Assembly (NCBI RefSeq): GCF_003058085.1
Contig: NZ_QBUD01000002.1
Location: 496,001 to 560,000 of the forward strand
Direction of reading: 5' to 3'
Origin: Yoonia sediminilitoris
Lineage (GTDB): Bacteria > Pseudomonadota > Alphaproteobacteria > Rhodobacterales > Rhodobacteraceae
Length of the DNA: 64,000 bases
Positions 19,935-34,623 of the stretch are shown piece by piece. The translations under genes were made by a program, and so were the position numbers. Under the pieces are notes generated by a model. That model had not been told where the DNA came from and did not search any database. It saw nothing but the letters and a program-made list of their open reading frames with translations. How positions within the stretch are numbered: position 1 is the stretch's first letter; each line of letters begins with the position of its first letter.

Positions 19935-19952
19935 AAAATGGGATGCCATTTT
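19935..19952. promoter_or_regulatory. Operator-like palindrome upstream of the Dpp-like operon
   Basis: AAAATGGGATGCCATTTT differs by one base from the perfect palindrome AAATGGCATGCCATTT found twice at 33169 and 33314. Its position 67-84 bases before the first gene fits a promoter-overlapping site. The likely ligand is the GntR/FCD protein encoded at 34615-35301 (inference). Confidence 0.65.
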
Positions 19953-20105
19953 GGATAGCAGAGATATGATGTTGAAACGGGGGACAGGCGCAAAGCGATC
20001 ATTATTGGGGCGGCTTGCACGGGCATGATGCGTTAATAGGCAGGGTCCGTCTGGTGGGGACCGTTCATTGTGGGCGCAAATCGACGGCTTTTCCGGGCGA
20101 CAGAA

Positions 20106-21044
20106 TCAATCTGGGTGCGCAGTTCTTCCTGCGATCCGTTTGTAGGCATCGGGGCGGCGGTGCTGGGCAAAGTCAAAGATGTTGGTCCGAATTTCGGCGC
20201 AGCGGGCCAGATCGCAATCGGCCACAATAATCTCGTCACCCAGGGTTCGGGCTTGCGCGATGATTTCGCCGGTCGGGGCCACGATGGCAGAGCCGCCGAT
20301 AAGGTCGCACCCCTCTTCCAGACCGGCTTTGGCGACACCGATCACCCACATCCCGTTTGCATAGGCCCCCGATTGAAGGCTGAGATGATTGTGGAAATCC
20401 TGCAGGTGATCATGTTCCGGCGCGGGTGGATAATGGCGCGGCGTATTGTATCCGATCAGGGCCATTTCGGCCCCGCTCAGTGCCAGTTCACGGTAGGTTT
20501 CGGGCCAGCGCCTGTCGTTGCAGATGGCCTGACCGATCTTCCCGCCCAAAAGATCGACCGACTGAAACCCGAACGGGCTTGGATCGAAATAGCGTTTTTC
20601 CAGATGTTGGAAGGGGCGCCATAGCTCGTGGTTTGTATGGCCGGGCAAATGGACTTTTCGATAACGGTCAATGATCTGTCCCGCGCCATCCACCAAGATG
20701 GATGTGTTGAAGTGATGCAACCTGCCGTCGTGTCTGCAAATCTCTGCGTAGCCGAATGAAAATGCGATCCCAAGCGCGTGCGCCCGCGCAAACAGTGGTG
20801 CAGTCGCCGCGTTTGGCATTTCTGTTTCAAAATAGGCATCAACCTCGCTTTGATCCGGCATGAACCAGCGGGGAAAGAAACTTGTCAGTGTGAGTTCTGG
20901 AAATACAACAAGGTCGACCTTGTCGCGGGCGGCTTGTTCCAGAAGCTTGATCATGCGGGCCACGGCTGATGCGCGGGGTTCATCGCGTGCAATAGGACCC
21001 ATTTGCGCCGCGGCGGTCCGCACGACGCGGTTTTTGTCATCCAT
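20106..21044 (-). CDS. Carbon-nitrogen hydrolase, N-carbamoyl-D-amino acid amidohydrolase-like
   Basis: Nitrilase-superfamily hydrolase that would remove carbamoyl from an N-carbamoyl amino acid, giving amino acid, ammonia and CO2, in the cytoplasm. The Glu-Lys-Cys triad is visible: Glu50 in VVFPELTLT, Lys130 in RYRKVHLPG and Cys175 in GQAICNDRRWPETYR, the last being the D-carbamoylase form. I chose the ATG at 21044, which follows GCAGGGGG and overlaps the amidase stop (ATGGATGA). It is the last gene of the coupled ureide operon and, with the hydantoinase, makes the two hydrolytic steps of a hydantoin pathway. Length 312 is typical. Confidence 0.87.
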   Translation of the reverse strand: MDDKNRVVRTAAAQMGPIARDEPRASAVARMIKLLEQAARDKVDLVVFPELTLTSFFPRWFMPDQSEVDAYFETEMPNAATAPLFARAHALGIAFSFGYAEICRHDGRLHHFNTSILVDGAGQIIDRYRKVHLPGHTNHELWRPFQHLEKRYFDPSPFGFQSVDLLGGKIGQAICNDRRWPETYRELALSGAEMALIGYNTPRHYPPAPEHDHLQDFHNHLSLQSGAYANGMWVIGVAKAGLEEGCDLIGGSAIVAPTGEIIAQARTLGDEIIVADCDLARCAEIRTNIFDFAQHRRPDAYKRIAGRTAHPD

Positions 21045-22395
21045 CGGTGATGCCCCCTGCAATTTTGGGCCACGTGAAACCCTTTGCGCAACTCTCTGAC
21101 CACGCGATCAGGGCCGGTTCCGACCCCATCGGTCCCACCAGTTGCATGCCGATTGGCAAACCATCGGACGGGGCGGGGAAGGCGACGGCGGGCAGACCTG
21201 CCGCATTGATCCAGCCGGTATAGATCGCGTGGCCTCTTGGCCCGACACTTTGTCCCGCGATGGAAGCAGGAAACGGTTCTGCTGCAGGCCAAGGGTTGGC
21301 GGCGGCTGTTGGCATCAGGATTGCATCATATTGCTGGAACAGACTGGCGCTGTCGTTGCGCAGTTTGAAGACAAGGTCGAGGACGCGGTAAAGATCTGCC
21401 GCAGACTTGCCCGCGCCCGTCTCTGCAATTTTCAGATACTTGGGATTGGCACTCTCCCGCACATTCGGGTGATCGTTCAGATATGCGGCCAATCCAATTG
21501 CGCCGATATCTGTCCACAGGGCGTTCAGCTGATCAAGCTCCAGTGGCATTGGCTTTTGGGCGACGTGATGGCCCAATTCAGATAGTCGGTCGCAGGTTGC
21601 TGCAAAGGCTGCGCGGATTGTTGGGTCGCAAGGCGCATCGGCAAGCGTTTCAATGGCGAGAATTTTTAGACGGTCCCATGTGGCGGGCGGGTCTGCATTG
21701 CCTGAAAGGACGCGGTCAATCAGTGCAAGGTCGCGCGCGCTTCGGGCGATAGGGCCGACCACTTCGAAATCCAGCAGGACTTGCGGCAGCCCCCCGCTAC
21801 GGCGCACCCGACCAATGCCGGGCTTTAGGCCGAATAATCCGGTGTATCCTGCCGGTCGGCGGATCGACCCGCCGCCGTCCGTCCCGATGCCCGCAAAAGC
21901 CAGACCTGCTGCAACGGCGGCAACGACCCCGCCAGAGGACCCGCCTGGCGTCAGCGCCGGATCAAACGGATTGCGCGTGACGCCAAAGGTCAGATTGTCG
22001 GTGTATCCTTCGATAGCGAATTCCGGCGTGTTGCCTTTCCCCAGAAAAATCGCCCCTGCATCCCGCAAGCGCGCGACCGGCGCTTCGTCGTGCTGGGCAA
22101 TCTGGCTGGCCAGATATGCATTGCCCCATGCGGCGGGCATTCCTTTGGTGACAAGGTTGTCCTTGATAATCAGCGGAATACCATCAAGCAGTCCGGCAGG
22201 GGTACCTGCTTGCCAGCGCGTGGTTGCTGCGGCAGCTTCTGACAGCGCATGGTCGTTGCGGGCAGTGAAGGCGTTCAGCGCCGGGTTGATGGTATCAATC
22301 CGGTGCAATGTGGTTTCCATCGCCTGCAAGGGTGTCGTGCTGCCATCAGCGAAGGCGGCCAGCAAGGCGGTGACGTCAGCCTGCCACATGTTCAT
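21037..22395 (-). CDS. Amidase signature family enzyme
   Basis: Cytoplasmic amidase of about 452 residues. The Ser-cisSer-Lys machinery is present: Lys in IIKDNLVTKG, the glycine-rich GGSSGGVVAAVAAG with the cis-Ser, and the nucleophile Ser in DGGGSIRRPAG. Family members include allophanate hydrolase, aryl/acyl amidases and GatA; no GatB/GatC is adjacent and there is no allophanate-specific C-terminal domain, so a catabolic amidase is likely. The ATG at 22395 overlaps the TRAP large subunit stop by four bases. It may release ammonia from an amide intermediate of the pathway encoded by the operon. Confidence 0.88.
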   Translation of the reverse strand: MNMWQADVTALLAAFADGSTTPLQAMETTLHRIDTINPALNAFTARNDHALSEAAAATTRWQAGTPAGLLDGIPLIIKDNLVTKGMPAAWGNAYLASQIAQHDEAPVARLRDAGAIFLGKGNTPEFAIEGYTDNLTFGVTRNPFDPALTPGGSSGGVVAAVAAGLAFAGIGTDGGGSIRRPAGYTGLFGLKPGIGRVRRSGGLPQVLLDFEVVGPIARSARDLALIDRVLSGNADPPATWDRLKILAIETLADAPCDPTIRAAFAATCDRLSELGHHVAQKPMPLELDQLNALWTDIGAIGLAAYLNDHPNVRESANPKYLKIAETGAGKSAADLYRVLDLVFKLRNDSASLFQQYDAILMPTAAANPWPAAEPFPASIAGQSVGPRGHAIYTGWINAAGLPAVAFPAPSDGLPIGMQLVGPMGSEPALIAWSESCAKGFTWPKIAGGITDG

Positions 22396-23693
22396 CCCGC
22401 CAGACTGTTGGGCAGCCACATCACGATCCCGGGGTAGAGGATCAGCAGCGTTGCGAAAAGCAGCATGATGATTGCATAGGGGATCGCGCCAATTATTACG
22501 TCCATAAACGGGCCTTTGTCGCTCCGCACGCCCTGCACAACGTAAAGGTTCATGCCGACGGGTGGTGTGATCATGCCAAGTTCGCTCATCAAGACGACGA
22601 AAATGCCAAACCAGATCGGGTCAATTCCGGCGGCCACGACAATCGGCACGGCAATAGGGATAGTCAGAACCTGCATCGACAGCACATCCATGAACATCCC
22701 AAGGACCAGATAAAACAGCATGAGTACAAACAGCAGCGCAATCGGAGTCAGGCCCAACCCGGAAACCCAAGTGTTCATCGCATTTGTGATCCCGCCAAGG
22801 GCCAAGGTGACGTTCAGTGTAAAGGCAGCGGCGATGATTAACAGGATCATTCCCGTTGTCTTGGCCGTTTGGCGAAAGCAGACATCCAGAAACGGCAGCG
22901 TTAGGCGTCCTTCACGCCAGACGAAGAAAAGGGCGACGATCACGGCAAGGGCAGCGCTTTCGGTGGGGGTGGCGATCCCCATGTAGATCGACCCCATAAT
23001 GATAACAAAGACAACGGCAGGCGGAAAAAGATGCCGCAATGCGCTGATCCGCTCAGCCCGGCTGACGCGCAGGGGTTCGGTCACCGCGTCACGCCTCCAA
23101 TAATGCTGGAGGGCGATCAGCACCATGAACGACAGGGTCAGCAGAATACCAGGGATGATGCCAGCAATGAAAAGCTGACCGACAGACACGTTCGCGAGGG
23201 ACCCGTAGACCAACAGATTGACAGAAGGCGGGATCAGAATGCCCAGCGTGCCGCCCGCTGCCAGCGATCCCAGTGCGCGCGAAGCGGAATAGTTCCGCTC
23301 TTTCAACGAAGGCAGAGCGACGGTACCGACTGTTGCAGCTGTCGCAACCGATGATCCGGAGGTGGCGGCAAAGAGAGCGCAACAACCGATATTGGTATGC
23401 AGCAACCCCCCCGGCAGTCGCCCCAGCCACAGCGCCAGCGCGCCATACATGCGGTCTGCGATCCCCGAACGCAGCAGCAACTCTCCCAGAAGGATGAAAA
23501 GCGGGATGGCGGTCAGCACGTTCTCGTTTTGCACACCCCACAGGACCGGACCCATGCTTTCCAGAAGGACTGGACCATAAAGCAGCATCCCGCCCGCAAC
23601 CCCCATCGCGACCATGACGATCGCCACGGGAAAACCAATCAGCAGCATGCCCATCATGACCACAAAGCCGACAGCGATATCGAAGATGGTCAT
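22392..23693 (-). CDS. TRAP transporter large permease (DctM-like)
   Basis: Inner-membrane ion-transporting subunit of a tripartite ATP-independent periplasmic carrier. The 433 residues are almost entirely hydrophobic, with about 12 segments and the DctM pattern (GVQNENVLTAIPLFILLGELL near the N-terminus, EL...ITPPVGMNLYVV near the end). It overlaps the small subunit gene by four bases. It is the second uptake system within this operon. Confidence 0.94.
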   Translation of the reverse strand: MTIFDIAVGFVVMMGMLLIGFPVAIVMVAMGVAGGMLLYGPVLLESMGPVLWGVQNENVLTAIPLFILLGELLLRSGIADRMYGALALWLGRLPGGLLHTNIGCCALFAATSGSSVATAATVGTVALPSLKERNYSASRALGSLAAGGTLGILIPPSVNLLVYGSLANVSVGQLFIAGIIPGILLTLSFMVLIALQHYWRRDAVTEPLRVSRAERISALRHLFPPAVVFVIIMGSIYMGIATPTESAALAVIVALFFVWREGRLTLPFLDVCFRQTAKTTGMILLIIAAAFTLNVTLALGGITNAMNTWVSGLGLTPIALLFVLMLFYLVLGMFMDVLSMQVLTIPIAVPIVVAAGIDPIWFGIFVVLMSELGMITPPVGMNLYVVQGVRSDKGPFMDVIIGAIPYAIIMLLFATLLILYPGIVMWLPNSLAG

Positions 23694-24259
23694 TGATCAT
23701 GTCCCTTGCGTTTGTTGAGTTCTTGCAGCTCATCGGCGAGTTCCTCTGCCGCGCCCTTTGGATTGAATTCAGCAGTCAAGGTGTTGTAATCGCGTCTGAA
23801 GAATAGCCATGTGGCACGGAACGACAGCAAGATCGCCGAAATCGAAAAGACGGCCAGCGCGCCATACCAAGCGGTCTGCGGCCAGATCAGTGGCGTGGCC
23901 CATGGTGTCGCGGCGGTGCTGCCATATGCCAGCGTGTCCTTGAGGACGAACCAGCCGACATAAAGAAAAAAGCAACCCAATACGGCCATCGAAACGGCGG
24001 CGAGCCAGTCGATCAGGGATTGCATGAAAAGCGGAAACTTCTGGTGTAATACGTCTATGCGGATGTGTGCACGCTCGGCCAGTGTGACCACAAAGGCGAG
24101 CGATGAACCAAAGGCGAGCACATAGCCGCCCAGTTCGTCCGCACCTTGCAATGATGTATTGAATAGCTTCCGCATCACCGTTTCCAGCGCAACAAAAGCA
24201 GAGAGCCCTAACAGCGACCAGCCAAAAAGCCTGCTGATCCACGTTGCAACGAATTCCAT
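23690..24259 (-). CDS. TRAP transporter small permease (DctQ-like)
   Basis: Four-helix small membrane subunit that pairs with DctM. Pattern LAERAHIRIDVLHQKFP is typical for DctQ. I place the start at the ATG at 24259 (MEFVATW) with GGGA upstream; an in-frame ATG at 24271 is an alternative. Separated from the binding-protein gene by a strong hairpin. C-terminal residues after the last helix are unusually long and acidic/charged (DELQELNKRKGHDQ). Confidence 0.88.
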   Translation of the reverse strand: MEFVATWISRLFGWSLLGLSAFVALETVMRKLFNTSLQGADELGGYVLAFGSSLAFVVTLAERAHIRIDVLHQKFPLFMQSLIDWLAAVSMAVLGCFFLYVGWFVLKDTLAYGSTAATPWATPLIWPQTAWYGALAVFSISAILLSFRATWLFFRRDYNTLTAEFNPKGAAEELADELQELNKRKGHDQ

Positions 24260-24285
24260 GTTCAATCCCATGACTGAGGAAGAGA

Positions 24286-24307
24286 GGGGGCGGTCCGAAC
24301 CGCCCCC
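24286..24307 (-). terminator. Intercistronic hairpin after the TRAP binding-protein gene
   Basis: Perfect 9-bp stem GGGGGCGGT / ACCGCCCCC with a four-base loop, 10 bases beyond the dctP-like stop and about 27 bases before the dctQ-like start. No T-run follows, so mRNA stabilisation of the binding-protein message or partial termination is more likely than full termination. Confidence 0.7.
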
Positions 24308-24316
24308 GTCAAGCAC

Positions 24317-25348
24317 TTAGAAGTCTTTGGCGACGCCAACGGTTTCCATCCACGATGTGGAACAGTCCGGGTTTGTCGCGTCGCAGATTTCTTTCCATGC
24401 CGGGAAGGATACATCTGTCACGGCTGTGCTGATAAGGGCCTTGTCGGCATCGGTCACTTCGACCAGTGTCAGGTCATAAAGCGTACCTGTTTCGCATGGC
24501 TGCTGGCCCACGTTACATTGCACCGCATCCAGAAACAGCTCTTCGGAATATTCCCAGATATCATCAACCAGCGTGTCAAACGCCGCCTGCATCTTTTCCT
24601 GATCTTCGGCTGACAGTGCATTCCATTTGTCAAGGTTCATGCCATAGCCGTTCATCGCCATCTGAAACGCGATCGGCATCATGTAGGACGTGACCTCGGG
24701 CCAGCCTGCGGAGTTGGCCGAGGATGGCCCGGTGATCGCGCAATCAACCACACCACGTGCCAAGGATTGTTGGACGTCGCCAAAGGAGAGCGGTACCGGG
24801 GTGCCACCGACCAACGAGATGAAATTGGCAAGGTTTTGGTCGTAGACGCGCACCTTCAGCCCGTTAAGATCGGCAAGCGACGATATCTCGGGCTTGCAGA
24901 ACAAGACCTGCGGTCCAAAGGGCCAGACACCCAGCAGCTTTGTGTTGAACTGGTCTTGCAGCCGCGCATCGACAACGGATTCGAAGGCCGCAACGCTTTC
25001 CTTGCCGCTTTCGTAGTCAGGGTTCAGCCCAACAAGATCAAGGCCCAGAATGGTCGGTTCATCACGCGAAACCTGGCTCAGGCGCAGCGAAATAATATCG
25101 AACAGCCCACTTTTCAGCACGCGCAGTTGCTCTGTGTCTTTGATGCCGGTTACGTCGGCAGGCTGAAACTCTGCCGTGATATCCAGTCCGGTGCTTTTGG
25201 CGAAATCGGCAAAGAACGGACCTTCTACGTTGTTTTGGATAAGCCCGGTTGCAGCCGGTTGGCCCATCACCCGCATCGTGGTTTCGGCGCTGGCGGGTAT
25301 GGCAAGCGACAGCAGGGCGATTGTACTGAGTAGATTTGAAATTTTCAT
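24317..25348 (-). CDS. TRAP transporter substrate-binding protein (DctP-like)
   Basis: Periplasmic solute receptor for the TRAP carrier, which usually binds carboxylates through a conserved arginine. Sec signal peptide MKISNLLSTIALLSLAIPASA begins at the ATG at 25348, preceded by GAGAGAG; a longer frame to 25411 would overlap the previous gene. The segment LNGLKVRVYDQNLANFISLVGG is the DctP-family core with the ligand arginine. The start overlaps the upstream enzyme gene by four bases. The mature protein has four cysteines near the C-terminus (CNVGQQPC and CDATNPDC), which could form disulfides. Confidence 0.92.
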   Translation of the reverse strand: MKISNLLSTIALLSLAIPASAETTMRVMGQPAATGLIQNNVEGPFFADFAKSTGLDITAEFQPADVTGIKDTEQLRVLKSGLFDIISLRLSQVSRDEPTILGLDLVGLNPDYESGKESVAAFESVVDARLQDQFNTKLLGVWPFGPQVLFCKPEISSLADLNGLKVRVYDQNLANFISLVGGTPVPLSFGDVQQSLARGVVDCAITGPSSANSAGWPEVTSYMMPIAFQMAMNGYGMNLDKWNALSAEDQEKMQAAFDTLVDDIWEYSEELFLDAVQCNVGQQPCETGTLYDLTLVEVTDADKALISTAVTDVSFPAWKEICDATNPDCSTSWMETVGVAKDF

Positions 25349-26127
25349 GGTTTCTCTCTCTGTTGGGAAGGTTGGGGAAGCTGGGCGAAGCGTTGAAAGA
25401 CGGACCCCCATTCCGTCACGCGGGTGGGATCAAGCCCCAATTCACACATGCAGTGCGCTGCTGTGACCGATACGGAATCAAAAACCGGAATTCCGATTTC
25501 GGCCTCGAGGGCAGCGGCATGGGGCGCGCCCCGGAAATTGGTGCAAAGAATCGAAATGGCGTCGGGTCTGCTTTGGGCGACATCGCGGATCATCTTGGCG
25601 ATCTGCGCGGTTGAGTAGGTGCCAAAGGCGTGGTTGACCTTTTCCTCAAGCCGGGCATCGGCTGTCACCGCGATCCCTTGTGTCGCGTATTGGGTGATAA
25701 TCCGCTCTTGCACTTCACTCAGGTAGGGGGTCACAAGCCCCAGCGTTTTCAGCCCGATCCCTGCAAACAGCCGGTCATAAGCGAGGCTGGTAGAGGTCGT
25801 CTTGATCCCGGTCTCGGCCGTGATCATGGCACATAAGGCGCGATCTTTCTCGAGCCCCAGCCAACTGGCCGAGGTGCCGTTCCATGCGATCAGGTCAACT
25901 TCTGCCTCGGCCAGAGACTTGGCCGCCTCCAGAATGGGGGCGTCTGTAAACTGGCCCTGGCTGGCGTCCGACATGGAGATTTCAACGACCCTGAACCGCC
26001 CGAAGTGCGCTGAGGCCGCGTCTCCGAAGGGCGCGAACATCGCAGAGGTGTAGGGTTCAAGCACCGTGTTGGATGACGGTGTCAACATGCCGACGCGCTT
26101 GCCTGTGAGGCGTTCAAAAGTGGTCAT
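25345..26127 (-). CDS. Maleate isomerase / arylmalonate decarboxylase-like protein
   Basis: 260-residue Asp/Glu racemase-fold enzyme of the maleate cis-trans isomerase and arylmalonate decarboxylase (AMDase) branch: N-terminal RVGMLTPSSNTVLEP, central AWNGTSASWLG and C-terminal ISILCTNFRG. Maleate isomerases need two cysteines. Here the first loop has Asn-Gly-Thr-Ser (residues 83-86) instead of Cys, as in AMDase, while the second cysteine (Cys195) is present. That pattern points to decarboxylation of a malonate-type acid or to a one-base reaction rather than isomerisation (inference). It is coupled on both sides by four-base overlaps. Confidence 0.8.
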   Translation of the reverse strand: MTTFERLTGKRVGMLTPSSNTVLEPYTSAMFAPFGDAASAHFGRFRVVEISMSDASQGQFTDAPILEAAKSLAEAEVDLIAWNGTSASWLGLEKDRALCAMITAETGIKTTSTSLAYDRLFAGIGLKTLGLVTPYLSEVQERIITQYATQGIAVTADARLEEKVNHAFGTYSTAQIAKMIRDVAQSRPDAISILCTNFRGAPHAAALEAEIGIPVFDSVSVTAAHCMCELGLDPTRVTEWGSVFQRFAQLPQPSQQREKP

Positions 26128-27524
26128 AACAGGAATTCCGGCGCTGATCGGGACAGATAGTCGCCTGTGGCAGCACCAACGATTTCGCCTTCCTTGGCGA
26201 CGGTTTTACCGCGCAACAGGGTGCGCACAGGCCAGCCTGTGACGTTGAAACCTTCCCACGGCGTATAGTCGGAACCGTGATGCAAATCGGCTTGCCGGAT
26301 CGGCTTGGTCAGGGTTGGGTCCCACAGCGTGATATCCGCATCGGCACCCACAGCAATCGCGCCCTTGCGCGGGGCCAGCCCGTAAAGCCGGGCGTGGTTT
26401 GTCGCAGTGATCGCGGCAAAGCGGGGGAGCGTGATCCGACCTTTCATGACCCCTTCGGAGAACAGGATCGGAAGCCGTGTTTCGACACCGGGGATGCCAT
26501 TGGGAATGTTGCGGAAGGTCGCGCGCGCGCCGGGGGCGTCTTTGCCGGCGGTGTCTGCAAAGCGAAAAGGGCAGTGATCGGACGAGAAGAGGTCAAAATC
26601 GCCCTGCTCCAGTCCCGCCCAGATTGCGGTTTGTTCGGCTGTGTCGCGGGGCGGCGGGGAGCAGACATATTTTGCCCCCTCAAATCCCGCGCGGTCCAGA
26701 TCATCTGCGGTCAGCGTGATATATTGCGGGCAGGTTTCGGCAAAAACCTTTGCGCCACGACGGCGGGCGCGTGTGATTTCTTCAAGGGCCGGCCCGTTCG
26801 AGACATGCACGATCGTCAATGGAACGCCTGCAATTTCTGCCAATGAAATCGCGCGGTGCGTTGCCTCGCGTTCGGCGGGGACAGGGCGCGTGCGGGCATG
26901 GTTTACCGGGCCTGTGTTGCCTGCCTCTTCGGCCTTGTCGCGCAGAAACTCGATGGCGTCTTCATTTTCCGCATGAACCATGACCATGGCGTTGTGTGCT
27001 TTGGCCACGTCCATGACGTCGAGGATTTCCCGGTCAGAGAGAGCGAGCCCGGCGTAGGTCATGAAGACTTTGAAGCTGGTGTAGCCCGCTTCAAACAGCG
27101 CGGGCAGGTCCTGCCCGAGTGTCTGGCTGTCGGTGTCTTTGATGATCAAATGAAAGGATACGTCGATATGGCACTGGCCGTTGGCCTTGGCGTGGTAGGC
27201 GTTCACCGCCTGCCGCAATGTCGCGCCGTCCTCTGGCAGGCAAAATGGCATCACCGTGGTGTTGCCCCCGCAGGCGGCCGACCGTGTGGCGCTGGCAAAA
27301 TCATCGGCCATCTCAATGCCGGGACCAGAGGGCTGCGCGATATGCACATGACTGTCGATGCCACCGGGCAGTGCGATCAGGCCGGTGGCGTCAATCACCT
27401 CTGTCGCGTCGCCAAGGTCGTGCCCCAGCGTGGCGATGCGCCCCGCGCGGATACCGATATCGCAGTTTACAACTTCGGCGCCAGTGACTACCCGGCCCCC
27501 TTTGATGATCAGGTCATGGCTCAC
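26124..27524 (-). CDS. Hydantoinase/dihydropyrimidinase family cyclic amidohydrolase
   Basis: Zinc amidohydrolase that opens hydantoin, dihydropyrimidine or related cyclic ureides to N-carbamoyl acids. All binuclear metal residues are visible: His59 and His61 in DSHVHIAQP, carboxylated Lys152 in FKVFMTYAG, His184 in MVHAEN, His240 in TIVHVSNG and Asp316 in SSDHCPF. GTG start with AGGGA seven bases upstream, inside the end of the racemase-family gene (11-base overlap). Length 466 is close to family norm. With the carbamoylase-like enzyme at 20106 it forms the core of a hydantoin-type pathway. Side-chain specificity is unknown. Confidence 0.9.
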   Translation of the reverse strand: MSHDLIIKGGRVVTGAEVVNCDIGIRAGRIATLGHDLGDATEVIDATGLIALPGGIDSHVHIAQPSGPGIEMADDFASATRSAACGGNTTVMPFCLPEDGATLRQAVNAYHAKANGQCHIDVSFHLIIKDTDSQTLGQDLPALFEAGYTSFKVFMTYAGLALSDREILDVMDVAKAHNAMVMVHAENEDAIEFLRDKAEEAGNTGPVNHARTRPVPAEREATHRAISLAEIAGVPLTIVHVSNGPALEEITRARRRGAKVFAETCPQYITLTADDLDRAGFEGAKYVCSPPPRDTAEQTAIWAGLEQGDFDLFSSDHCPFRFADTAGKDAPGARATFRNIPNGIPGVETRLPILFSEGVMKGRITLPRFAAITATNHARLYGLAPRKGAIAVGADADITLWDPTLTKPIRQADLHHGSDYTPWEGFNVTGWPVRTLLRGKTVAKEGEIVGAATGDYLSRSAPEFLL

Positions 27525-28275
27525 CTTGCGTCCCTCCGTGGTTGATGGCGATCGCCAGCGGCGGGCTCAGTCCGACTGATCGCTTCGGCGCGGGTTTCGT
27601 GAAGCGTGGCGCGTCGGTGGCAGTGGCCGTCATCTGGATGAGTGTGACTGCTTGCAGGACGGCTGACGTGATCGGATCAACGACGATGGCGGGCACCTCC
27701 GCCGCAACCTGTGTGGCCAACCCCGCCAGCGGTGCGCCACCAAGAATGACAACATCCGCATGACCGCGGGTTGCCGCAGCAGTTGCAAGTGCGATCAGAT
27801 CGCTGCGCAGATCGGTTTGCACATCCAACAATTGTTCGGGCGCTTTTTCGGGCGAACGGACGCCCTTGAATCGGTTGCCCATGCCGGTGGAGTGCACGCA
27901 TTCGTCGTACCAGCGTTTCATAAGGGGTGAGAATGTGACAACCACAAAGCTGTCACCCAGCATCGCGGCGGTCATGACAGAGGCTTCGGCCATGCCGACG
28001 ATGGGCAAATCGAACAGGTCTCTGGCCCCGGCAAGCCCCGGATCGCCAAAGGCCGCGATGACGACCGCATCGACGGTATCTGCATGTTCCGCGATCATTT
28101 CCAGCACCAGTGCCCCTGCGATCTGGGCCTCGGCCCGGCTTGCGATGTAGGGAAAACCGCGTGTCGCCGTGACAGGGATGATCTCGGCGCGGTCGCCCAC
28201 AGCGGCGCGGGCGATCTGTGCCATGTTGTCGGTCATGGCCTGCGTTGTGTTGGGGTTCAGGAGCAGTATTTTCAT
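27514..28275 (-). CDS. Asp/Glu/hydantoin racemase family protein lacking both catalytic Cys
   Basis: 253-residue protein with the hydantoin racemase framework: MKILLLNPNTTQAMT at the N-terminus, AAFGDPGL in the middle and ILGGAPLAG towards the end. In characterised hydantoin and allantoin racemases the second and third motifs contain Cys; here they are Ala and Gly, so the classic two-cysteine mechanism is missing. A proline/lysine-rich C-terminal tail of about 35 residues is extra. The ATG overlaps the stop of the 66-residue gene upstream (ATGA). Despite the genome position where hyuE would be expected, its activity is open. Confidence 0.82.
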   Translation of the reverse strand: MKILLLNPNTTQAMTDNMAQIARAAVGDRAEIIPVTATRGFPYIASRAEAQIAGALVLEMIAEHADTVDAVVIAAFGDPGLAGARDLFDLPIVGMAEASVMTAAMLGDSFVVVTFSPLMKRWYDECVHSTGMGNRFKGVRSPEKAPEQLLDVQTDLRSDLIALATAAATRGHADVVILGGAPLAGLATQVAAEVPAIVVDPITSAVLQAVTLIQMTATATDAPRFTKPAPKRSVGLSPPLAIAINHGGTQGEP

Positions 28276-28472
28276 TGCATTGCCTTTATTCTGTTCCCTG
28301 TCAGGTCAGCAGTGTGAAGAGTGGTTTCAAAGGGTCGGGCGGTGGCCAGCAATGCGTGGTCGGCGATGCGTTGTCGGCCGACACGGGCCGTCACGACCAG
28401 TGCCGCGGCGATGGCTGGTTTCGCTTGGATTTGCACATCGGCAGCAATGTTGCGGGCGGCGGACAGGGTCAT
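28272..28472 (-). CDS. 66-residue protein of unknown function, coupled on both sides
   Basis: I do not recognise this protein. Its ATG at 28472 overlaps the stop of the deacetylase gene (ATGA), and its own stop overlaps the ATG of the racemase-family gene (ATGA), so it sits in the operon exactly like a real gene. It starts MTLSAARNIAADVQIQ and ends DLTGNRIKAMQ. It has no cysteine, no signal peptide and no membrane segment; alternating hydrophobic residues (AAALVVTARV) suggest beta strands. It may be a small accessory or an isolated domain that in relatives is fused to a neighbour. Confidence 0.65.
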   Translation of the reverse strand: MTLSAARNIAADVQIQAKPAIAAALVVTARVGRQRIADHALLATARPFETTLHTADLTGNRIKAMQ

Positions 28473-29350
28473 GTGGCAAGGCCCTTCCAATGGGCGGCGA
28501 TTTCGCGCCTTTGGGCAATCCAGACATTTGGCCTGTCTGTGATATGGGCAAGCACATCCTCAAGCCCTTTGATCCGCCCCGCCCGGCCGATAAGGCGCAG
28601 ATGCAACCCGATCGACATCATACGCGCAGCCCGTGCGCCCTCGGCATAGAGCCGATCGAAAGCGCCGATCACATAGTCTGAAAAATCCCGGTGCTGGACA
28701 AAGCCGCCGCCCGGCGAAAACCGCATGTCGTTGGTGTCGAACGCGTAGGGCAGGATGACGTGGTTGGCGTTATGCATCCGGGGTATGTCGTCGTCATAGG
28801 CGTCGCTGTCATATGCGAAACCACCATGTTCCAGCAGCAATTCACGGGTATTTACCGACGGGGCAGAGCGTGTGTGCCAACCAACCGGAGCTGCGCCACA
28901 GGCCCTTTCAATGGCGCTGTGTGTGCGGGCGATCATTACGGCTTCGTCGGTGCGGGCCATCTCGGCCTGTCGTTCCCAGCGCCAGCCATGGCAGGACACT
29001 TCGTGCCCGCGCGCCACGGCATCCTGCAACAACCAGGGCGACCTTTCCGCTGCTCGCCCGCAAGTGGAAAAGGTGGCCTTGGCGCCGAACCTGTCGAAGG
29101 TATCAGCGATGCGCCCATAGCCCTGACGGGTGCCATAGGTGAAATGGGTTTCCATGCAGGGATCTGGATGGCCAATCACCTCTTCACGGATTTCATAAGT
29201 TCTTTCATTGCGTTCGTCGCCATCTGCGATGGACAGCTCCGCGCCTTCCTCTACATTCACGACAATGGACACGGCCAGTCGTGCATCATTTGGCCAATTG
29301 GGTGCAGGCTCGGCGCCAAAGTACCCTTTGAAATCGCGTCGCTCGGTCAT
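28469..29350 (-). CDS. Polysaccharide deacetylase-family hydrolase, PuuE allantoinase-like
   Basis: NodB-fold hydrolase of 293 residues. The pattern WPNDARLAVSIVVNVEEGAE near residue 18, YGTRQGYGRIADTF and FDRFGAKATFSTCGRAAE, and HEVSCHGWRW match the PuuE subfamily, whose characterised member is a metal-independent allantoinase in Pseudomonas; others act on chitin or related amides. Cytoplasmic, no signal peptide. Overlaps the upstream permease stop by four bases. In an operon with a hydantoinase this gives two unrelated enzymes able to open a five-membered ureide ring, possibly for different substrates or enantiomers. Confidence 0.85.
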   Translation of the reverse strand: MTERRDFKGYFGAEPAPNWPNDARLAVSIVVNVEEGAELSIADGDERNERTYEIREEVIGHPDPCMETHFTYGTRQGYGRIADTFDRFGAKATFSTCGRAAERSPWLLQDAVARGHEVSCHGWRWERQAEMARTDEAVMIARTHSAIERACGAAPVGWHTRSAPSVNTRELLLEHGGFAYDSDAYDDDIPRMHNANHVILPYAFDTNDMRFSPGGGFVQHRDFSDYVIGAFDRLYAEGARAARMMSIGLHLRLIGRAGRIKGLEDVLAHITDRPNVWIAQRREIAAHWKGLAT

Positions 29351-30147
29351 GTGTCGATCATCCTGTTCAGCCCGACGGTGCGCGAGGCCACCATAAGGAC
29401 GACAATTGCCATCAGGATCAGACCTGACGACATCGCCGCAAGCGAAGGGTCCGGCTGTTCCTCAAGATATTGCAGCATCTTGATCGGCAGGGTCTTGTTG
29501 CGGGCGTCGGTCAGAAAGATCGAAATTGGATAGTTGTCCATCGACGCCAGAAAGGCAAAAAGCCCTCCGGTCAGATATGCGGGCGCGAGGCCGGGGATGA
29601 GCACCTTCAGGATCGCGCGCGGGTAGCTGAGACCCAATGTCCGGGCCGCATCAACCAACGAAAAATCAAACGCCTCCATCGCCGCCAGCAAGGTTCGCAT
29701 CACGAAAGGCAGTGTGATCACCACATGCGCAAGAAGGAGCGACCAATAGGCATCGCGCAGGCCAATCTCGCGAAAGAATTGCAGCATCGCCACGCCAACA
29801 ACAAGGCCGGGCATCATCAGGGGCGAAACGGTGAACGTCGCAATCGCGTCTTTCCCGCGAAAGTCCCCACGCGACACGGCGATGGCCGCCATCGTGCCCA
29901 GAACCATCGAAATCATGGTCGAAATCAGCGCAAGATTGAGCGAGAGTTGCACCGCCTCCCACAGCCCGCTCCGCCGCTCAATCGAGCGGTACCAACGCAG
30001 CGACCATTCCGGCGGTGGCAATGTGTAGACAGAGGATGAAGTGAAGGACGTGGCCACAGTAATGACGATCGGCAACATCAGGAAAATGATACAGCCGATG
30101 CCAATGACCCAGGCAAAGCCAAGGGTTATGCGATCTGTCTGGGTCAT
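29347..30147 (-). CDS. Spermidine/putrescine-type ABC transporter permease (PotC-like)
   Basis: Six-helix inner-membrane permease with the EAA loop (EAFDFSLVDAARTLGLSYPRA). I chose the ATG at 30147, which overlaps the previous permease stop (ATGA) and gives a normal 266-residue product; the frame extends to 30420 but that part lies inside the neighbouring gene. Partner of the gene at 30144-30974. Confidence 0.92.
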   Translation of the reverse strand: MTQTDRITLGFAWVIGIGCIIFLMLPIVITVATSFTSSSVYTLPPPEWSLRWYRSIERRSGLWEAVQLSLNLALISTMISMVLGTMAAIAVSRGDFRGKDAIATFTVSPLMMPGLVVGVAMLQFFREIGLRDAYWSLLLAHVVITLPFVMRTLLAAMEAFDFSLVDAARTLGLSYPRAILKVLIPGLAPAYLTGGLFAFLASMDNYPISIFLTDARNKTLPIKMLQYLEEQPDPSLAAMSSGLILMAIVVLMVASRTVGLNRMIDT

Positions 30148-30974
30148 TTGCGTGCCCCCAATCGACCGGCGAGCCAACTCGAGAACAGGACTACAAAGAT
30201 CGCGATTGCCAAAAGAACCGCCGAGATCGTCGACCCAAGTGGTTCGTTCCTCAGGTAGAGGAACGAGCGGGCGATCAGCATCGACAATGTCTGCTGCCGT
30301 TCCCCGACGATCAAAGAAGGGATCACATACATCGAGATCGCAAGCGAAAAGGTAAAGGCGGACCCGGCCACGACACCGGGCAATGTCAACGGCAGTGTCA
30401 CCCGCGTGAACCGAAACCATGGTGTGGCGCCCAGCGATGACGCGGCTTCCGGCAGGTTGCGGTTAAGCTGGCGGACCACGGTATAGATCGGCAACACCAT
30501 GAAGGGCAGGAACACATTTGCCGCCCCGATAATCAGTGCGGTTTCGGTGAACAGCATCCGAATGGGCTCGTCCGTTATGCCAAGGCTTTGCAGGCTGGTA
30601 TTGAGAAAGCCGTTCGACCGGAACAGGATCGACCATGCAAAGGCCTTGACGATCACACCCAGCGACATCGGCAGCACCAGCGCCACCAGAAATACGTTCA
30701 GCCAGATGCCTTTGGCCCGCGCCATGGCAAAGGCCGTCGGATAGGCAATGGCCAGCGCAAGCAACGTGGTCAAAAGCGCCACACGCAAAGTCCGCCACAA
30801 GACGACCTGATTGAATTCATCCCCAAAGAAATCAATGTAGGTAATAAGTGTCAGACCATCGACGCCCTGCACGCTTTTGAAAAGCAGTAACACCAGCGGA
30901 AGCGCATAGATCACCGCCAGAAATGCAAGCCCCGGTACGGCCAGCAATCCGATGCGATCCAACCGCATGATCAT
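30144..30974 (-). CDS. Spermidine/putrescine-type ABC transporter permease (PotB-like)
   Basis: Six-helix permease of 276 residues, with the EAA loop (PEAASSLGATPWFRFTRVTLP). The ATG at 30974 overlaps the ATPase stop by four bases, which fixes the start; a longer frame to 31019 would be inside the ATPase gene. It forms the channel with the PotC-like protein. Confidence 0.92.
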   Translation of the reverse strand: MIMRLDRIGLLAVPGLAFLAVIYALPLVLLLFKSVQGVDGLTLITYIDFFGDEFNQVVLWRTLRVALLTTLLALAIAYPTAFAMARAKGIWLNVFLVALVLPMSLGVIVKAFAWSILFRSNGFLNTSLQSLGITDEPIRMLFTETALIIGAANVFLPFMVLPIYTVVRQLNRNLPEAASSLGATPWFRFTRVTLPLTLPGVVAGSAFTFSLAISMYVIPSLIVGERQQTLSMLIARSFLYLRNEPLGSTISAVLLAIAIFVVLFSSWLAGRLGARK

Positions 30975-32065
30975 GCCGGCACCGCATGGATGAGCGTGTC
31001 GTCGACCGCCCAGCCCCATGTTACTGTCTGGCCGCGCTTGTAATCTGTCCGGATGCCGGAAAGTTCGCAGAGGAAATTGTCATCGTCGGTCGTGGCCCCG
31101 TGTAACACGGTCTTTGAACCGAGCGTCATCACATCGTCCAATTGTACGCTGATCTGGTTCATCTCGGCCGTTGGATCGGGCGTGATCAACTCGGGCCGGA
31201 CCCCCAGAAGCACGGGGGTGCCCGCCGCCAAGCCGGACCTTGCCCGCACGGGCCCGACATTGGTGGTGACAGTTGCAATGCCGCCCGCCTGTTCGGTCAC
31301 GCGACCGGACAGACGCGTCGAGAGCCCCACAAAATCCATCACAAATGGCGATGCTGGCTGTGCATAAAGTGTGGATGGTTCAGCGAATTGTTCGATCTTG
31401 CCTTTGTTCATCACAGCAATCCGGTCCGAGACACCCATGGCCTCGTCCTGATCGTGGGTCACAAAAATTGCGGTGATGCCCCGGTTGCGCAACAGAGCCT
31501 TCAATTCGATCTGCATGGTCTCGCGCAATTTGCGGTCCAGCGCTGAAAAGGGCTCATCCAGCAACAAAAGGTCCGGTGACACAACAAGTGCCCGCGCCAC
31601 TGCAACGCGCTGTTGTTGGCCACCTGAAAGTGCAGAGACCGGACGATCCGCAAAAGCATCCATGCGGACAAGGGCCAGCGCGTCTGCGACGGGTCTGGCA
31701 GCGTCCGCCTTGGAGGTGCCGCGCGCGCGCAGGCCAAAGGCCACGTTTTCGGCAACAGTCAGATGTGGAAACAGGGCGTAGTTCTGGAAAACAACGGAAA
31801 TATTGCGCTTGTGCGCCGGAAGAGACGACAGATTGCGGCCGCCCAACACGATATCGCCAGTATCAGCCTGTAACAGCCCTGCGATAATCCGCAGCAAGGT
31901 CGTCTTGCCACAGCCCGAAGGCCCAAGAAGCGAGACCAGCTCGCCCTTGGCCACCCGAAAGTTCATCTGATCCATGATTGCCGCGCCTTTGAAGGATTTG
32001 GCGACGCCGATGACATCCAGATACCGATGTTCGTTCGGGGGCAAGTGACTGGCTTGGCCTTGCAT
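30971..32065 (-). CDS. Spermidine/putrescine-type ABC transporter ATP-binding protein (PotA-like)
   Basis: ATPase of 364 residues with Walker A GPSGCGKTT, signature LSGGQQQRVA, Walker B LLLLDEPFSALD and a C-terminal TOBE domain (from about residue 280) typical of Pot/Fbp importers. It begins five bases after the binding-protein stop. Peripheral inner-membrane protein energising the import of whatever the periplasmic partner binds. Confidence 0.93.
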   Translation of the reverse strand: MQGQASHLPPNEHRYLDVIGVAKSFKGAAIMDQMNFRVAKGELVSLLGPSGCGKTTLLRIIAGLLQADTGDIVLGGRNLSSLPAHKRNISVVFQNYALFPHLTVAENVAFGLRARGTSKADAARPVADALALVRMDAFADRPVSALSGGQQQRVAVARALVVSPDLLLLDEPFSALDRKLRETMQIELKALLRNRGITAIFVTHDQDEAMGVSDRIAVMNKGKIEQFAEPSTLYAQPASPFVMDFVGLSTRLSGRVTEQAGGIATVTTNVGPVRARSGLAAGTPVLLGVRPELITPDPTAEMNQISVQLDDVMTLGSKTVLHGATTDDDNFLCELSGIRTDYKRGQTVTWGWAVDDTLIHAVPA

Positions 32066-32069
32066 GTGT

Positions 32070-33122
32070 CTAGAGCGCCATCAGCTTGTCGAAACGATCG
32101 ATCCATTCGGCCCTGTTTGACGCAACGAACGCCCAGTCTGGCGCATAGATCTGCACGCCCTCCGGTACGACTGCACCCGCAGTGACGGTTGTATTTGCAG
32201 GCACTGACGATGCGAAATCAGCGATTGCCGCTTGCATCACAGGCCCCAGCATTTCGTTGACATAAGCCTGCGCCAATTCGGGGTTTGGCCCGCCTTTGAC
32301 CAGACAGATGCCCGATGGCATCGCAAAGATACCTTCCGCTGGTGCCGCCAGATCAACAGGCACACCTTCGGCCTTGCGGGGCAGTGTGTAGGAAGAGAAG
32401 TTGCCGGAAAGCATGGAAATTTCGCCCTGTTCCAACAGGTTGAACGCTTGGCTCATGGTGGAATAGACGGTCAGCAGATTGGGTTTGAGTTCTTCCAGCT
32501 TGGCAAAGGCCGCGTCGATCTCGTATTGCGCTTCGGAAAAGGGCAGGCCTGATCCCAGCATGGCCGCAGACATCAATGTCCACATGCCTTCGGTGTTCTG
32601 CAAAGACGGGATGATGATCTGGCCCGCGTTGGCCGGCTCCCAGAGCGCGGACCATGAGGCGACGCCATCGGTCTTGTCGGTGTTATAGGCGATGCCTGCC
32701 CACGGCTGCACATAATTGCACCACATCCCGTCCATATGGGTGGCGTCAGTGCGCAGGTCGGTCATGTTCGGCACAGCGTCCGGCGTGATCGGTGTCAATA
32801 GATCGGCTTCAACAGCCTGAATCATCACCGGGTCATCCATTTGCACGACAGAAAGGTAGGGTGCGTCTTTGTTCGAGGACATCTTCTCGAGGTTCACGGA
32901 TGATTTCGTGCCTTCGAAAAGGATGTCTGCGCCGATGGTCTCTTTCATGTGGGGCGCGACGATGGTTTCCATCCATGCGGTGTGCGAACCGGCGCAGCCG
33001 ATAACCAGCTCGCTGGATTGCGCACGCAAAATAGATGGCGCGGCGAGCGTTCCCACTGTCGCCATCGCCGACGTTTTCAGAAGTGTCCTACGGGTCAGAG
33101 CCCGCGCAGTCTTATAGGTCAT
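32070..33122 (-). CDS. ABC transporter substrate-binding protein (PotD-like), Tat-exported
   Basis: Periplasmic solute receptor of 350 residues, first gene of the 14-gene operon. The N-terminus MTYKTARALTRRTLLKT followed by a hydrophobic stretch ending SILRAQ is a twin-arginine signal. The ATG at 33122 has GAGGA upstream; a longer in-frame start at 33224 would place the operator palindrome inside the coding sequence. The family binds polyamines, amino acids or related cations; here the ligand is probably the pathway substrate or a precursor. Confidence 0.9.
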   Translation of the reverse strand: MTYKTARALTRRTLLKTSAMATVGTLAAPSILRAQSSELVIGCAGSHTAWMETIVAPHMKETIGADILFEGTKSSVNLEKMSSNKDAPYLSVVQMDDPVMIQAVEADLLTPITPDAVPNMTDLRTDATHMDGMWCNYVQPWAGIAYNTDKTDGVASWSALWEPANAGQIIIPSLQNTEGMWTLMSAAMLGSGLPFSEAQYEIDAAFAKLEELKPNLLTVYSTMSQAFNLLEQGEISMLSGNFSSYTLPRKAEGVPVDLAAPAEGIFAMPSGICLVKGGPNPELAQAYVNEMLGPVMQAAIADFASSVPANTTVTAGAVVPEGVQIYAPDWAFVASNRAEWIDRFDKLMAL

Positions 33123-33168
33123 TATCTTGTCATCCTCTGTCAGGTTAGGGCCGCTCTTCTGGCGGATT

Positions 33169-33184
33169 AAATGGCATGCCATTT
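33169..33184. promoter_or_regulatory. Perfect 16-bp operator palindrome upstream of the ureide operon
   Basis: AAATGGCATGCCATTT is a perfect palindrome 47 bases before the PotD-like start, in the 181-base region between two divergent genes. The sequence type fits GntR/FCD operators. A second identical copy lies 145 bases away and a one-mismatch copy at 19935. Confidence 0.75.
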
Positions 33185-33303
33185 GACACAGATGACGAAA
33201 ATTGTGATGGATAGCGATGAGCAAGGCTTATTTTTAAGCTTTTCTTCACATCAGACCGGATTGACCGCAGTTTTTCAGCGAAGGCGCTCAAGGAGTAGGC
33301 AGA

Positions 33304-34623
33304 ATGAAAACTAAAATGGCATGCCATTTGAGAAACGTAGCCTTGCTGTGCCCGCAAGAGGGATTCGTTCCGCATGGATCGCTGACGATTTCGGATGGTG
33401 TGATCACGGCGCGCGGTGCCGCGCCGCTGCCGGGTGAGACTGTGATCGACTGCAAGGGGGCTTTGTGTCTGCCGGGTCTGATCAACACGCACAATCACTC
33501 GCCACTGATGAGCGTGCGCGGGATGGTCGAAGACTTGGGGTTTGCTCCTGCCTACACACCCGGTGTCCCGCAGGGGCATTGGCTCTCGGCGGAAGAGACA
33601 CACATCCTCGCGCGGCTTGGCGTGATGGAAATGCTTTGCGCCGGGGCGACGACAATTGTGGACTATTACCGGATGCCGGACGCGCTTGCCCGTGCCGCCG
33701 ACGCATTTGGCCTACGCGCCATGATTGGCGGGAGGGTCATGGATGCGGATACGGCCGCCTTGGCCAACGGTCAGTTTGTGCATGATCCAAAATTGGGCGA
33801 GGAAACTTTGGGCGCGGCGCTGGACCTGATTGACACATGGGATGCCAAGGGCAACGACCGCATCAGCACGATTCTGGCGCCACATGCGCCTGACACCTGT
33901 TCCAGACAGATGCTGCAAAGCTTTGCAGAGCTGTCGGCCAAGACCGGCAAACAGGTCCATACACATCTTGCGCAATCGAAGATGGAGGTTGCGCAGGTCA
34001 TGGCACGCGACGGTCTGTCGCCAGCGGAACTGCTGGAAGACGTTGGCCTGCTCTCTACTGATCTTGTGGCGGCCCACTGCATCTTTCTGGAACCCGACGA
34101 TATTCGCCGCGTGGGACAGGCCGGTGTGGTCATCAACCACGCGCCTATCGGAAATGCGGCCTTCGGGGCGGCGGCCCCTATATTGGCGCTGCATGATGCC
34201 GGGGCCACAATCACACTTTGTACCGATACCAAATCCGCTGACATGTTCGAGGCCATGCGGACTGCGATCTCTTCGGCACGCTGGCGCGCGGATATGGCAT
34301 TCGTTCTGGACGCAAAGACAGTTTTTGGCTGGGGCACTGTCGATGCAGCACGCGCGCTAAAAGGCCATCAGGGGACCGGGACGCTCTCAGTCGGATCGTC
34401 CGCCGACCTGATCTTGCTGGACCCGAATGCGGCTAACCTCAGACCTGTGATCGATGGCTTTGGCATCGTTGTGCATTCAGGATCAGCGTCCAATGTAACC
34501 GACGTCATGGTCGCTGGTGAATGGTTGGTACGGGACCGCCGACCAACGCGCGTCGATATGGAAACCGTCATTCAAGAGGCCCAGACTGTCGCCAAAGGCC
34601 TTTGGCAGCGGGCCTCAGCCTAA
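33304..34623 (+). CDS. Amidohydrolase, ATZ/TRZ deaminase-type
   Basis: Metal-dependent deaminase/chlorohydrolase-type enzyme of 439 residues. Metal ligands: His63 and His65 (NTHNHSP), His219/His221 (VHTHLAQS), His258 (AAHCIFL) and Asp308 (LCTDTKSAD). Relatives deaminate 8-oxoguanine, guanine, S-adenosylhomocysteine or s-triazines, so a purine-like or cyclic guanidine ring is a reasonable guess. The ATG at 33304 has AGGAG eight bases upstream. The operator palindrome occupies codons 4 to 9, and a TTG at 33328 would also give a family-like N-terminus but lacks a ribosome site. Divergent from the ureide operon; its end overlaps the convergent GntR gene by nine bases. Confidence 0.87.
   Translation: MKTKMACHLRNVALLCPQEGFVPHGSLTISDGVITARGAAPLPGETVIDCKGALCLPGLINTHNHSPLMSVRGMVEDLGFAPAYTPGVPQGHWLSAEETHILARLGVMEMLCAGATTIVDYYRMPDALARAADAFGLRAMIGGRVMDADTAALANGQFVHDPKLGEETLGAALDLIDTWDAKGNDRISTILAPHAPDTCSRQMLQSFAELSAKTGKQVHTHLAQSKMEVAQVMARDGLSPAELLEDVGLLSTDLVAAHCIFLEPDDIRRVGQAGVVINHAPIGNAAFGAAAPILALHDAGATITLCTDTKSADMFEAMRTAISSARWRADMAFVLDAKTVFGWGTVDAARALKGHQGTGTLSVGSSADLILLDPNAANLRPVIDGFGIVVHSGSASNVTDVMVAGEWLVRDRRPTRVDMETVIQEAQTVAKGLWQRASA
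33314..33329. promoter_or_regulatory. Second perfect copy of the 16-bp operator
   Basis: Identical AAATGGCATGCCATTT palindrome, lying just after the proposed start codon of the amidohydrolase gene (codons 4-9). A repressor here could block elongation or, by pairing with the copy at 33169, form a loop over both divergent promoters (inference). Confidence 0.75.

Follow-up and report, generated by a model that had tools for sequence, protein, structure and literature searches.

The question raised by this locus is whether scattered copies of one short palindrome tie a set of importers and hydrolases to a single regulator, and how the copies work together. The locus lies in a stretch of 64,000 nucleotides from Yoonia sediminilitoris (NCBI RefSeq assembly GCF_003058085.1, contig NZ_QBUD01000002.1, positions 496,001 to 560,000), here called the window. 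The palindrome, AAATGGCATGCCATTT, is very probably the operator of the adjacent GntR protein, a VanR-group regulator with an FCD effector domain, which would repress the transcripts of a divergent region (divergon) and of a Dpp-like importer. More tentatively, and a little short of an even chance, the system may be a fixed-length-loop regulator of hydantoin catabolism, in which an oligomer of this regulator, bearing a putative metal site, sits on two operators with the core GGCATGCC that are kept 143-145 bp apart across genera. In that proposal the spacing has outlasted both the divergence of the spacer and the swap of one flanking gene, and in several genomes the distal operator includes the divergent gene's start codon. 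The predicted operators and the regulator are the following.

33169-33184, no strand assigned: operator O1 (predicted, potD-proximal), exact copy of AAATGGCATGCCATTT, 46 bp upstream of the potD ATG at 33122
33314-33329, no strand assigned: operator O2 (predicted, distal), exact copy, on amidohydrolase codons 4-9, 145 bp from O1 (start to start)
19936-19951, no strand assigned: operator O3 (predicted), one mismatch, 67 bp upstream of dppA
34615-35301, minus strand: GntR/FCD regulator, proposed repressor, 228 amino acids (aa), PF00392 and PF07729 above cut-off

An initial annotation of this DNA had listed the same three sites with these mismatch counts and had noted no other intergenic copy, and a scan of the window agrees on both points. 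At three mismatches or fewer the window holds these three places only; shuffled sequences gave a mean of 0.44 and none of 100 reached three. In the whole genome (4,668,162 bases, 49 contigs) the places at two mismatches or fewer are the three window sites only, with 27 further places at exactly three mismatches. The motif is therefore rare: three places were observed at one mismatch or fewer, against an expectation of 0.024 from base composition or 0.09 extrapolated from the three-mismatch count, and none at two mismatches, against 0.59 or 1.9. The annotation had also placed the sites before the Pot-like operon, at the start of the amidohydrolase gene and before the Dpp-like operon. The first and last placements stand, and the middle one is to be corrected, since the site at 33314 lies inside the gene, whose ATG at 33304 follows AAGGAG. 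At its right end O1 merges into TTGACA, which may serve the divergent amidohydrolase gene as a -35 box.

Conservation of the palindrome was examined together with gntR and potD. Among 394 genomes of the family, 44 have a GntR match at E <= 1e-30. In the own genus the regulator was found at E <= 1e-50 in 2 of 56 genomes, including the window's, and the cluster is therefore patchy; the regulator is present in both genomes of the genus of G071 and in all four of the genus of G226. Among 385 genomes of the class, two matched at E <= 1e-42, both inside the family. Contigs of public genomes yielded a GntR of 79% identity in Boseongicola aestuarii, the second match being at 27%, and seven plasmid records matched, including one of Allorhizobium pseudoryzae (51%), outside the family. 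Fifteen other holders of an ortholog of 51-79% identity were read, namely Boseongicola, G831, G071, G775, G226, G776, G777, G778, G013, G125, G231, G328, G083, and the plasmids of Salipiger sp. CCB-MM3 and Allorhizobium pseudoryzae. In 13 of these 15, a copy of the palindrome with three mismatches or fewer accompanies gntR or the pot/enzyme operon, so that the conservation in relatives with gntR is borne out. The two holders without it, G775 and G013, contain a TGA in the reading frame of gntR (L085, 9455-10090, and L055, about 9109-9711, respectively) and show four-mismatch places only; potD was not found in either at E <= 1e-60. These two genomes possibly represent a natural loss of the system. 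More distant GntR homologs, at 40-47% identity (G055, G168, G177, Defluviimonas, and Paracoccus versutus), have no site at three mismatches or fewer in any of the five stretches of 17-21 kb that were read.

A search with the pattern itself at one mismatch or fewer gave 17 of 345 family genomes, and 13 for the reversed pattern. Seven exact places occur in five genomes, all at the cluster: G000, G125, G231, and G328 (with gntR), and G008 (at the pot operon), where gntR was not found in an assembly that is 82% complete. G071 has a one-mismatch site at the cluster. Eleven genomes with a lone one-mismatch place have no GntR match at E <= 1e-30, a number to be compared with the 13 genomes for the reversed pattern. 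Orthologs of potD (E <= 1e-120, at least 76% identity) are present in 6 of the 394 family genomes including the window's, and in all six the palindrome lies upstream, at 23-69 bp from potD; the copy in G083 has three mismatches. The operon and gntR lie on separate contigs in G083 (potD on C12, gntR on C20) and G778 (C1 and C29), and the site therefore follows the regulated operon, not merely the neighbourhood of gntR. G231 has one site directly before the CE4 hydrolase gene and a second upstream of an importer that is unrelated and comes with an amidohydrolase homolog. The Salipiger plasmid has a three-mismatch site between gntR and another importer; from these arrangements the regulator appears to keep much of the enzyme core while the importers change. 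In L058 (5114-8837) and L090 (7662-13499) the regulator was seen beside unrelated importers, of the SBP_bac_3 and NMT1 types, that travel with amidohydrolases. Overall, the rarity of the motif in the genome and its conservation with gntR in relatives support the GntR-controlled regulon that the initial annotation had proposed.

The regulator consists of a winged helix-turn-helix domain (PF00392, 56.9 bits, cut-off 27) and an FCD effector domain (PF07729, 96 bits, cut-off 24.3). Its AlphaFold model (mean pLDDT 90.6) shows the effector helices 84-108, 111-129, 133-151, 154-175, 178-196, and 200-224. Six effector helices are described for the VanR group, and one more for the FadR group (PMC4494728, PMC7797058), and by its model the regulator falls into the six-helix VanR group. 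The candidate metal residues N140, H144, H188, and H210 are invariant in 13 of 13 orthologs and point to a putative effector metal site of the Asp/Asn plus three His type, which marks a subset of the family. Also invariant in all 13 are R39, E42, S52, R53, T54, and R57, the equivalents of the Atu1419 contacts R31, E34, S44, R45, T46, and R49. An additional residue, R43, is invariant in the same orthologs; we infer that it stands at the place of FadR Arg35 and could read the extra G of the core. The best structure matches of the model in the PDB were 7u5q, AlkR 9isw, and Atu1419 6za3. AlkR (VanR; 9isw), PmiR (7xp0), and the Brucella protein 7u5q share the overall fold (TM-score to the query 0.84, 0.71, and 0.80) at about 25% identity, a likeness in fold that need not extend to function. 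Three-mismatch sites stand beside gntR in G071, G226, and G776, with a weaker one in G777, and gntR is likely to be autoregulated in these relatives.

The GntR protein had been called the only local regulator. It is indeed the nearest one, but a TetR gene (38380-38982) and an OxyR-like LysR gene (39436-40359) lie 3-4 kb further. Both were rejected as the regulator, being without a match in 14 related loci (E <= 1e-15) or in 9 loci (at least 38% identity); other LysR genes are present in the Salipiger stretch. Beside gntR, at 35623-38982, the window also encodes a xanthine-dehydrogenase-like Mo subunit and 2Fe-2S subunit next to the TetR protein, without a palindrome, and the xanthine-dehydrogenase-like pair has no match in the same 14 or 9 loci.

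The outer two sites before potD lie 143-145 bp apart, start to start, in all nine multi-site potD loci: 145 bp in the window and G831, and 143 bp in Boseongicola, G071, G226, G776, G777, G778, and Salipiger. Measured from O1, the start of potD lies 35 to 82 bp away in these nine loci and 23 to 82 bp away across 13 potD loci. O2 is adjoined by gntR instead of the amidohydrolase gene in G776 and on the Salipiger plasmid, and there too it keeps its 143 bp. The spacers measure 127 or 129 bp; their identity is 62-66% between Boseongicola and the window or G831, and 44-53% in gapped alignment for the other pairs between genera. Among 29 spacer comparisons between genera, 13 score above 95% of simple shuffles and the other 16 stay below that mark. 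In the genus of G226 a further site stands in between, 106 and 37 bp from the others, in four of four genomes (the G777 copy has four mismatches), and in G125 the racemase gene is preceded by two exact sites at a distance of 21 bp. An ATG within the palindrome seems to be the start codon of the amidohydrolase in G226 (L054, 8609), G071 (L053, 10360), and G778 (L101, 2742). By eye, TTGACA directly follows O1 on the amidohydrolase strand in six of eight loci with an adjoining amidohydrolase gene (present in the window, G831, Boseongicola, G226, G777, and G778; absent in G071 and Allorhizobium) and in none of three loci that have gntR instead (G776, Salipiger, and G328), with G008 and G083 left out of the count. 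A consensus promoter scan of 33050-33450 found none, and no -10 box was recognised; near the dpp site the scan gave one weak candidate on the other strand. From the fixed spacing it appears more likely that O1 and O2 work as a pair, bound by two linked dimers, than that each serves a gene of its own. Most simply such a pair would close a DNA loop, for which the chances seem evenly divided.

The base preferences of the operator were taken from 37 places at three mismatches or fewer (74 half-sites), which were chosen for their likeness to the motif and include related copies. The count keeps the chance-like places Boseongicola 11301 and G831 2154, plus G083 14926, which lies inside overlapping open reading frames; outside it, at four or more mismatches, are the middle site of G777, the gntR-side sites of G777 and G778, and one site in G083. 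The half-site consensus is A-A-A-T-G-G-V-A, with C 52, A 12, G 10, and T 0 at position -2. The missing T is not a selection artefact, because the choice treats A, G, and T alike at this position. As operators, the three-mismatch places Boseongicola 11301 (dctP region) and G831 2154 (hydantoinase region) were set aside as chance. The places G000:C1:533078-533093 and G226:C61:54104-54119 read GAATGGTATACCATTT and AAATGGTATACCATTT, the GT...AC form of the palindrome, and possibly belong to a sister FCD regulator. Literature containing TGGCATGCCA appears, by title, to be unrelated to this system.

The genes that the operators would serve, with their neighbours behind the Dpp-like importer, are listed below.

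33304-34623, plus strand: amidohydrolase (TRZ/ATZ-type deaminase/chlorohydrolase superfamily), PF01979, divergent from the pot operon
32070-33122, minus strand: potD-like periplasmic binding protein; probable start at 33122, not the listed TTG at 33224, the N-terminus resembling that of relatives
30971-32065, minus strand: potA-like ABC ATPase
30144-31019, minus strand: potB-like permease
29347-30420, minus strand: potC-like permease; the listed reading-frame start overlaps potB and the true start is probably later
28469-29350, minus strand: CE4 / PuuE-like hydrolase (PuuE 3cl6, E 1e-64)
27514-28275, minus strand: hydantoin/allantoin racemase homolog, PF01177 (allantoin racemase 5lfd, E 5e-25)
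26124-27524, minus strand: D-hydantoinase / dihydropyrimidinase, NF009941 and TIGR02033 above cut-off; closest solved structure 1nfg, E 4e-121
25345-26127, minus strand: Asp/Glu racemase / arylmalonate decarboxylase-like enzyme, PF17645
22392-25411, minus strand: TRAP importer DctP-DctQ-DctM
21037-22419, minus strand: amidase-signature hydrolase, PF01425
20106-21062, minus strand: N-carbamoyl-D-amino-acid hydrolase (8i99, E 1e-113), motifs FPEL, RKvHLPG, and CNDRRW kept
14342-19868, minus strand: Dpp-like ABC importer DppA-B-C-D-F, behind O3; dppA reading frame 18270-19868
13455-14108 and 12709-13458, minus strand: Asp/Glu racemase and a 249-aa protein, possible end of the Dpp operon, membership uncertain

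A unit of about 22 kb with three importers and some ten enzymes had been proposed. The enzymes number seven in the divergon transcripts and nine with the two genes behind Dpp. This last pair is preceded by a gap of 233 bp, and its 249-aa protein (12709-13458) has no Pfam match. The CE4-racemase gap of 193 bp holds a 66-aa frame (28272-28472, minus strand) that overlaps the CE4 stop (ATGA) and the racemase start. It was considered as a remnant of the amidase found there in some relatives and rejected, as no convincing match was obtained; Boseongicola has nothing there. A simple scan of this gap found no terminator. Elsewhere in the window, an OxyR-like LysR gene is divergent from the gene of a 729-aa peroxidase-family protein (catalase-peroxidase-like) at 39436-42650, and a 1798-aa bacterial alpha-2-macroglobulin with a PAN domain is encoded at 3756-9152.

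The enzyme families also bear on the substrate. The D-hydantoinase scores 514.8 bits with TIGR02033 (cut-off 393.25) and 730.4 with NF009941 (cut-off 647). The carbamoylase matches eleven solved D-carbamoylase sequences at E < 1e-100, and in the best of these the Glu, Lys, and Cys positions align, which we take to be the catalytic triad of D-carbamoylases. The racemase homolog is nearest to the allantoin racemase 5lfd and the putative hydantoin racemase 3qvk, and no NCBIfam model matched it. The NCBIfam matches shown for the amidohydrolase are all below cut-off (best 25 of 35). A purine/allantoin route (PuuE, uric acid) was rejected, since the CE4 hydrolase reaches 266.2 bits with the PuuE allantoinase model TIGR03212, below its cut-off of 424.6. 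Because a D-hydantoinase, a hydantoin/allantoin-type racemase, and an N-carbamoyl-D-amino-acid hydrolase are encoded, the substrate class narrows to hydantoin or related cyclic ureides; the 'ureide/amide' pathway of the initial annotation thus becomes the breakdown of hydantoins and N-carbamoyl-D-amino acids, and the likely products are D-amino acids. The sites, their rarity, their conservation with gntR, the fixed spacing, and the enzyme families can be read directly from the sequence.

From these observations we infer binding, repression rather than activation, a loop, an inducer, and a substrate, as follows. When no inducer is present, GntR would most likely repress the amidohydrolase transcript and the pot-CE4-racemase-hydantoinase-TRAP-amidase-carbamoylase transcript. 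O1 would lie in the promoter region of pot and may extend over the -35 box of the amidohydrolase gene, O2 would cover the first codons of that gene, and two linked repressor dimers would probably close a DNA loop between them. The third operator, O3, would extend repression to the Dpp importer. 5-Substituted hydantoins or related cyclic ureides would most likely be imported and hydrolysed stepwise to N-carbamoyl-D-amino acids and then to D-amino acids. A carboxylate intermediate, for example an N-carbamoyl amino acid, could enter the effector pocket at the metal site and release repression.

Several observations weigh against this account or parts of it. The window's own gntR has no palindrome (scores in 35302-35620 reach at most -5.3 bits, whereas the three sites score 28-31). 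Relatives also have off-cluster places at two mismatches: G071, G226, G328, and G083 have one or two apiece, and G055, which has only the 47% homolog, has eight such places on C1, with none for the reversed-pattern control. The 193-bp CE4-racemase gap is a weak point for the continuity of the pot operon. The Dpp operon is the weakest member of the regulon: its inclusion rests mainly on the one-mismatch site O3 in this genome, and relatives have no Dpp site at the same place. The nearest parallel to O3 is in G071, where Dpp lies beside gntR and a three-mismatch site stands between dppA and gntR, much closer to the latter, and the 37 kb contig of Boseongicola has no dppA, with only ATPase matches below 40%. 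As to the loop, 143 bp makes 13.6 helical turns if a turn takes 10.5 bp and 13.0 if it takes 11.0; phasing therefore neither proves nor excludes a loop. If these palindromes are operators of the GntR protein, their core GGCATGCC is also atypical. Operators of the GntR family are usually of the form GT...AC, with reported exceptions including BioR and NanR, and the FadR-subfamily consensus is TKGT/ACMA (PMC4494728); the core found here has GC where most GntR operators have GT.

It is a serious if doubtful possibility that O1 simply serves pot and O2 the amidohydrolase gene, with no loop, and that the constant distance reflects a compact intergenic region with few insertions or deletions. In a published survey most double-site divergons of the FadR subfamily act through separate sites: 71 of 100 that include a transcription-factor gene, and all 46 of the control without one, the window's type (PMC4494728). 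This counts against cooperation of O1 and O2. O2 overlaps the amidohydrolase start, and 4 of the 13 potD loci (G328, G008, Allorhizobium, and G083) manage with one site, so the pair is not obligatory. The 13 spacer comparisons that do beat 95% of shuffles leave a residual similarity that makes a fixed length less surprising than it would be with unrelated spacers. Outside the trio of window, Boseongicola, and G831, however, the spacers fall to 44-53% identity and the 16 comparisons that do not beat shuffles remain. Moreover, the spacing is fixed in the same nine loci in which the O1-potD distance varies, and O2 keeps its 143 bp in G776 and Salipiger, where its neighbour is gntR. The persistence of O2 in these two loci, which have no amidohydrolase gene there, also makes it hardly credible that O2 is kept for the residues it specifies (MxxHL, at the N-terminus of the amidohydrolase) rather than as an operator. 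The in-frame ATG GCA TGC CAT TTG of the window and Boseongicola, with similar codons in G071, G226, and G778, would suit such a coding constraint, but G231 and G125 encode two amidohydrolase homologs, at about 40% identity, whose N-termini are quite unlike this one.

The two remaining alternatives concern the regulator. That GntR acts as an activator, or as activator and repressor, rather than as a pure repressor is unlikely. The direction of regulation is unreadable from sequence, but the positions of O2, downstream of the amidohydrolase translation start, and of O1, 46 bp from the potD start, fit blocking better, and Atu1419, a VanR-group regulator with a solved DNA complex, is a repressor (PMC7797058). 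It is very improbable that the palindrome is owned by a different, unlinked regulator and that the proximity of gntR is coincidental. The departure of the core from the GT...AC signature and the site in G008, where gntR was not found, would agree with an unlinked owner. However, gntR orthologs and the palindrome occur together in several genera and also on plasmids; G775 and G013, whose gntR frame holds a TGA and in which potD was not found, show four-mismatch traces only; and none of the window's other regulators was found again in the related loci. The adjacent GntR protein as repressor of the divergon and of Dpp is thus the reading that we retain.

Among known systems, gene clusters for hydantoin utilisation (hyu) encode a racemase, a hydantoinase, and a D-carbamoylase together. 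Here a D-hydantoinase, a D-carbamoylase, and a candidate hydantoin racemase are likewise encoded together, and the cluster adds importers of the Pot-like, TRAP, and Dpp-like kinds, a hydrolase of the CE4/PuuE-like kind, an amidase, and an adjoining GntR regulator. A literature search of titles and abstract starts, with most subscription papers outside its scope, found no GntR regulator of hydantoin-degradation genes; the nearest listed there concerns AmtR control of creatine utilisation in Corynebacterium (PMC8864220). Enzymes acting on hydantoins and N-carbamoyl-D-amino acids are used industrially for optically pure amino acids (PMC5466576), and the present analysis names a probable dedicated regulator and operator for this breakdown.

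The operators resemble those of the FadR subfamily in being palindromes centred on AT with a TGG/CCA arm, in matching TKGT/ACMA with a 2-nt gap save for one base, and in occurring as double sites in divergons, which are common there (PMC4494728). They differ in position -2, which is C, A, or G and never T here, and in the missing GT/AC pair. The GGCATGCC core is a useful data point for the prediction of GntR operators. The only example of looping in the VanR group obtained by the literature search was Atu1419 of Agrobacterium fabrum. Atu1419 is a tetramer that represses a hydroxycinnamate regulon, with loops seen by electron microscopy. Of its palindromes, two share a divergent region at a distance of 190 bp and a third precedes another gene, and a degenerate operator lies inside an open reading frame (PMC7797058). 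The window likewise combines three short palindromes with catabolic genes, two of them sharing one divergent region and the third preceding another gene. The DNA-contact and metal residues are the same, N137, H141, H192, and H214 of Atu1419 (PMC7797058) matching N140, H144, H188, and H210 in kind and nearly in spacing, and Atu1419 is among the top structure matches. The palindromes differ (ATGTATACAT in Atu1419, ATGGCATGCCAT here), as do the distance (190 bp against 143-145 bp) and the pathway (PMC7797058). Against the analogy, this looping precedent is only about 24% identical to the regulator, with a TM-score of 0.60-0.65, and the tetramer is that of Atu1419. By sequence, two predicted operators at a loopable distance are present in one control region, as in an Atu1419-type pair, and the layout of the window may be regarded as a close parallel of Atu1419. 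The operator pair kept at 143-145 bp offers a natural case for looping by FCD regulators. Overall, the locus fits the known type of local FCD-GntR regulon and stands out by its unusual core and its strikingly fixed operator pair.

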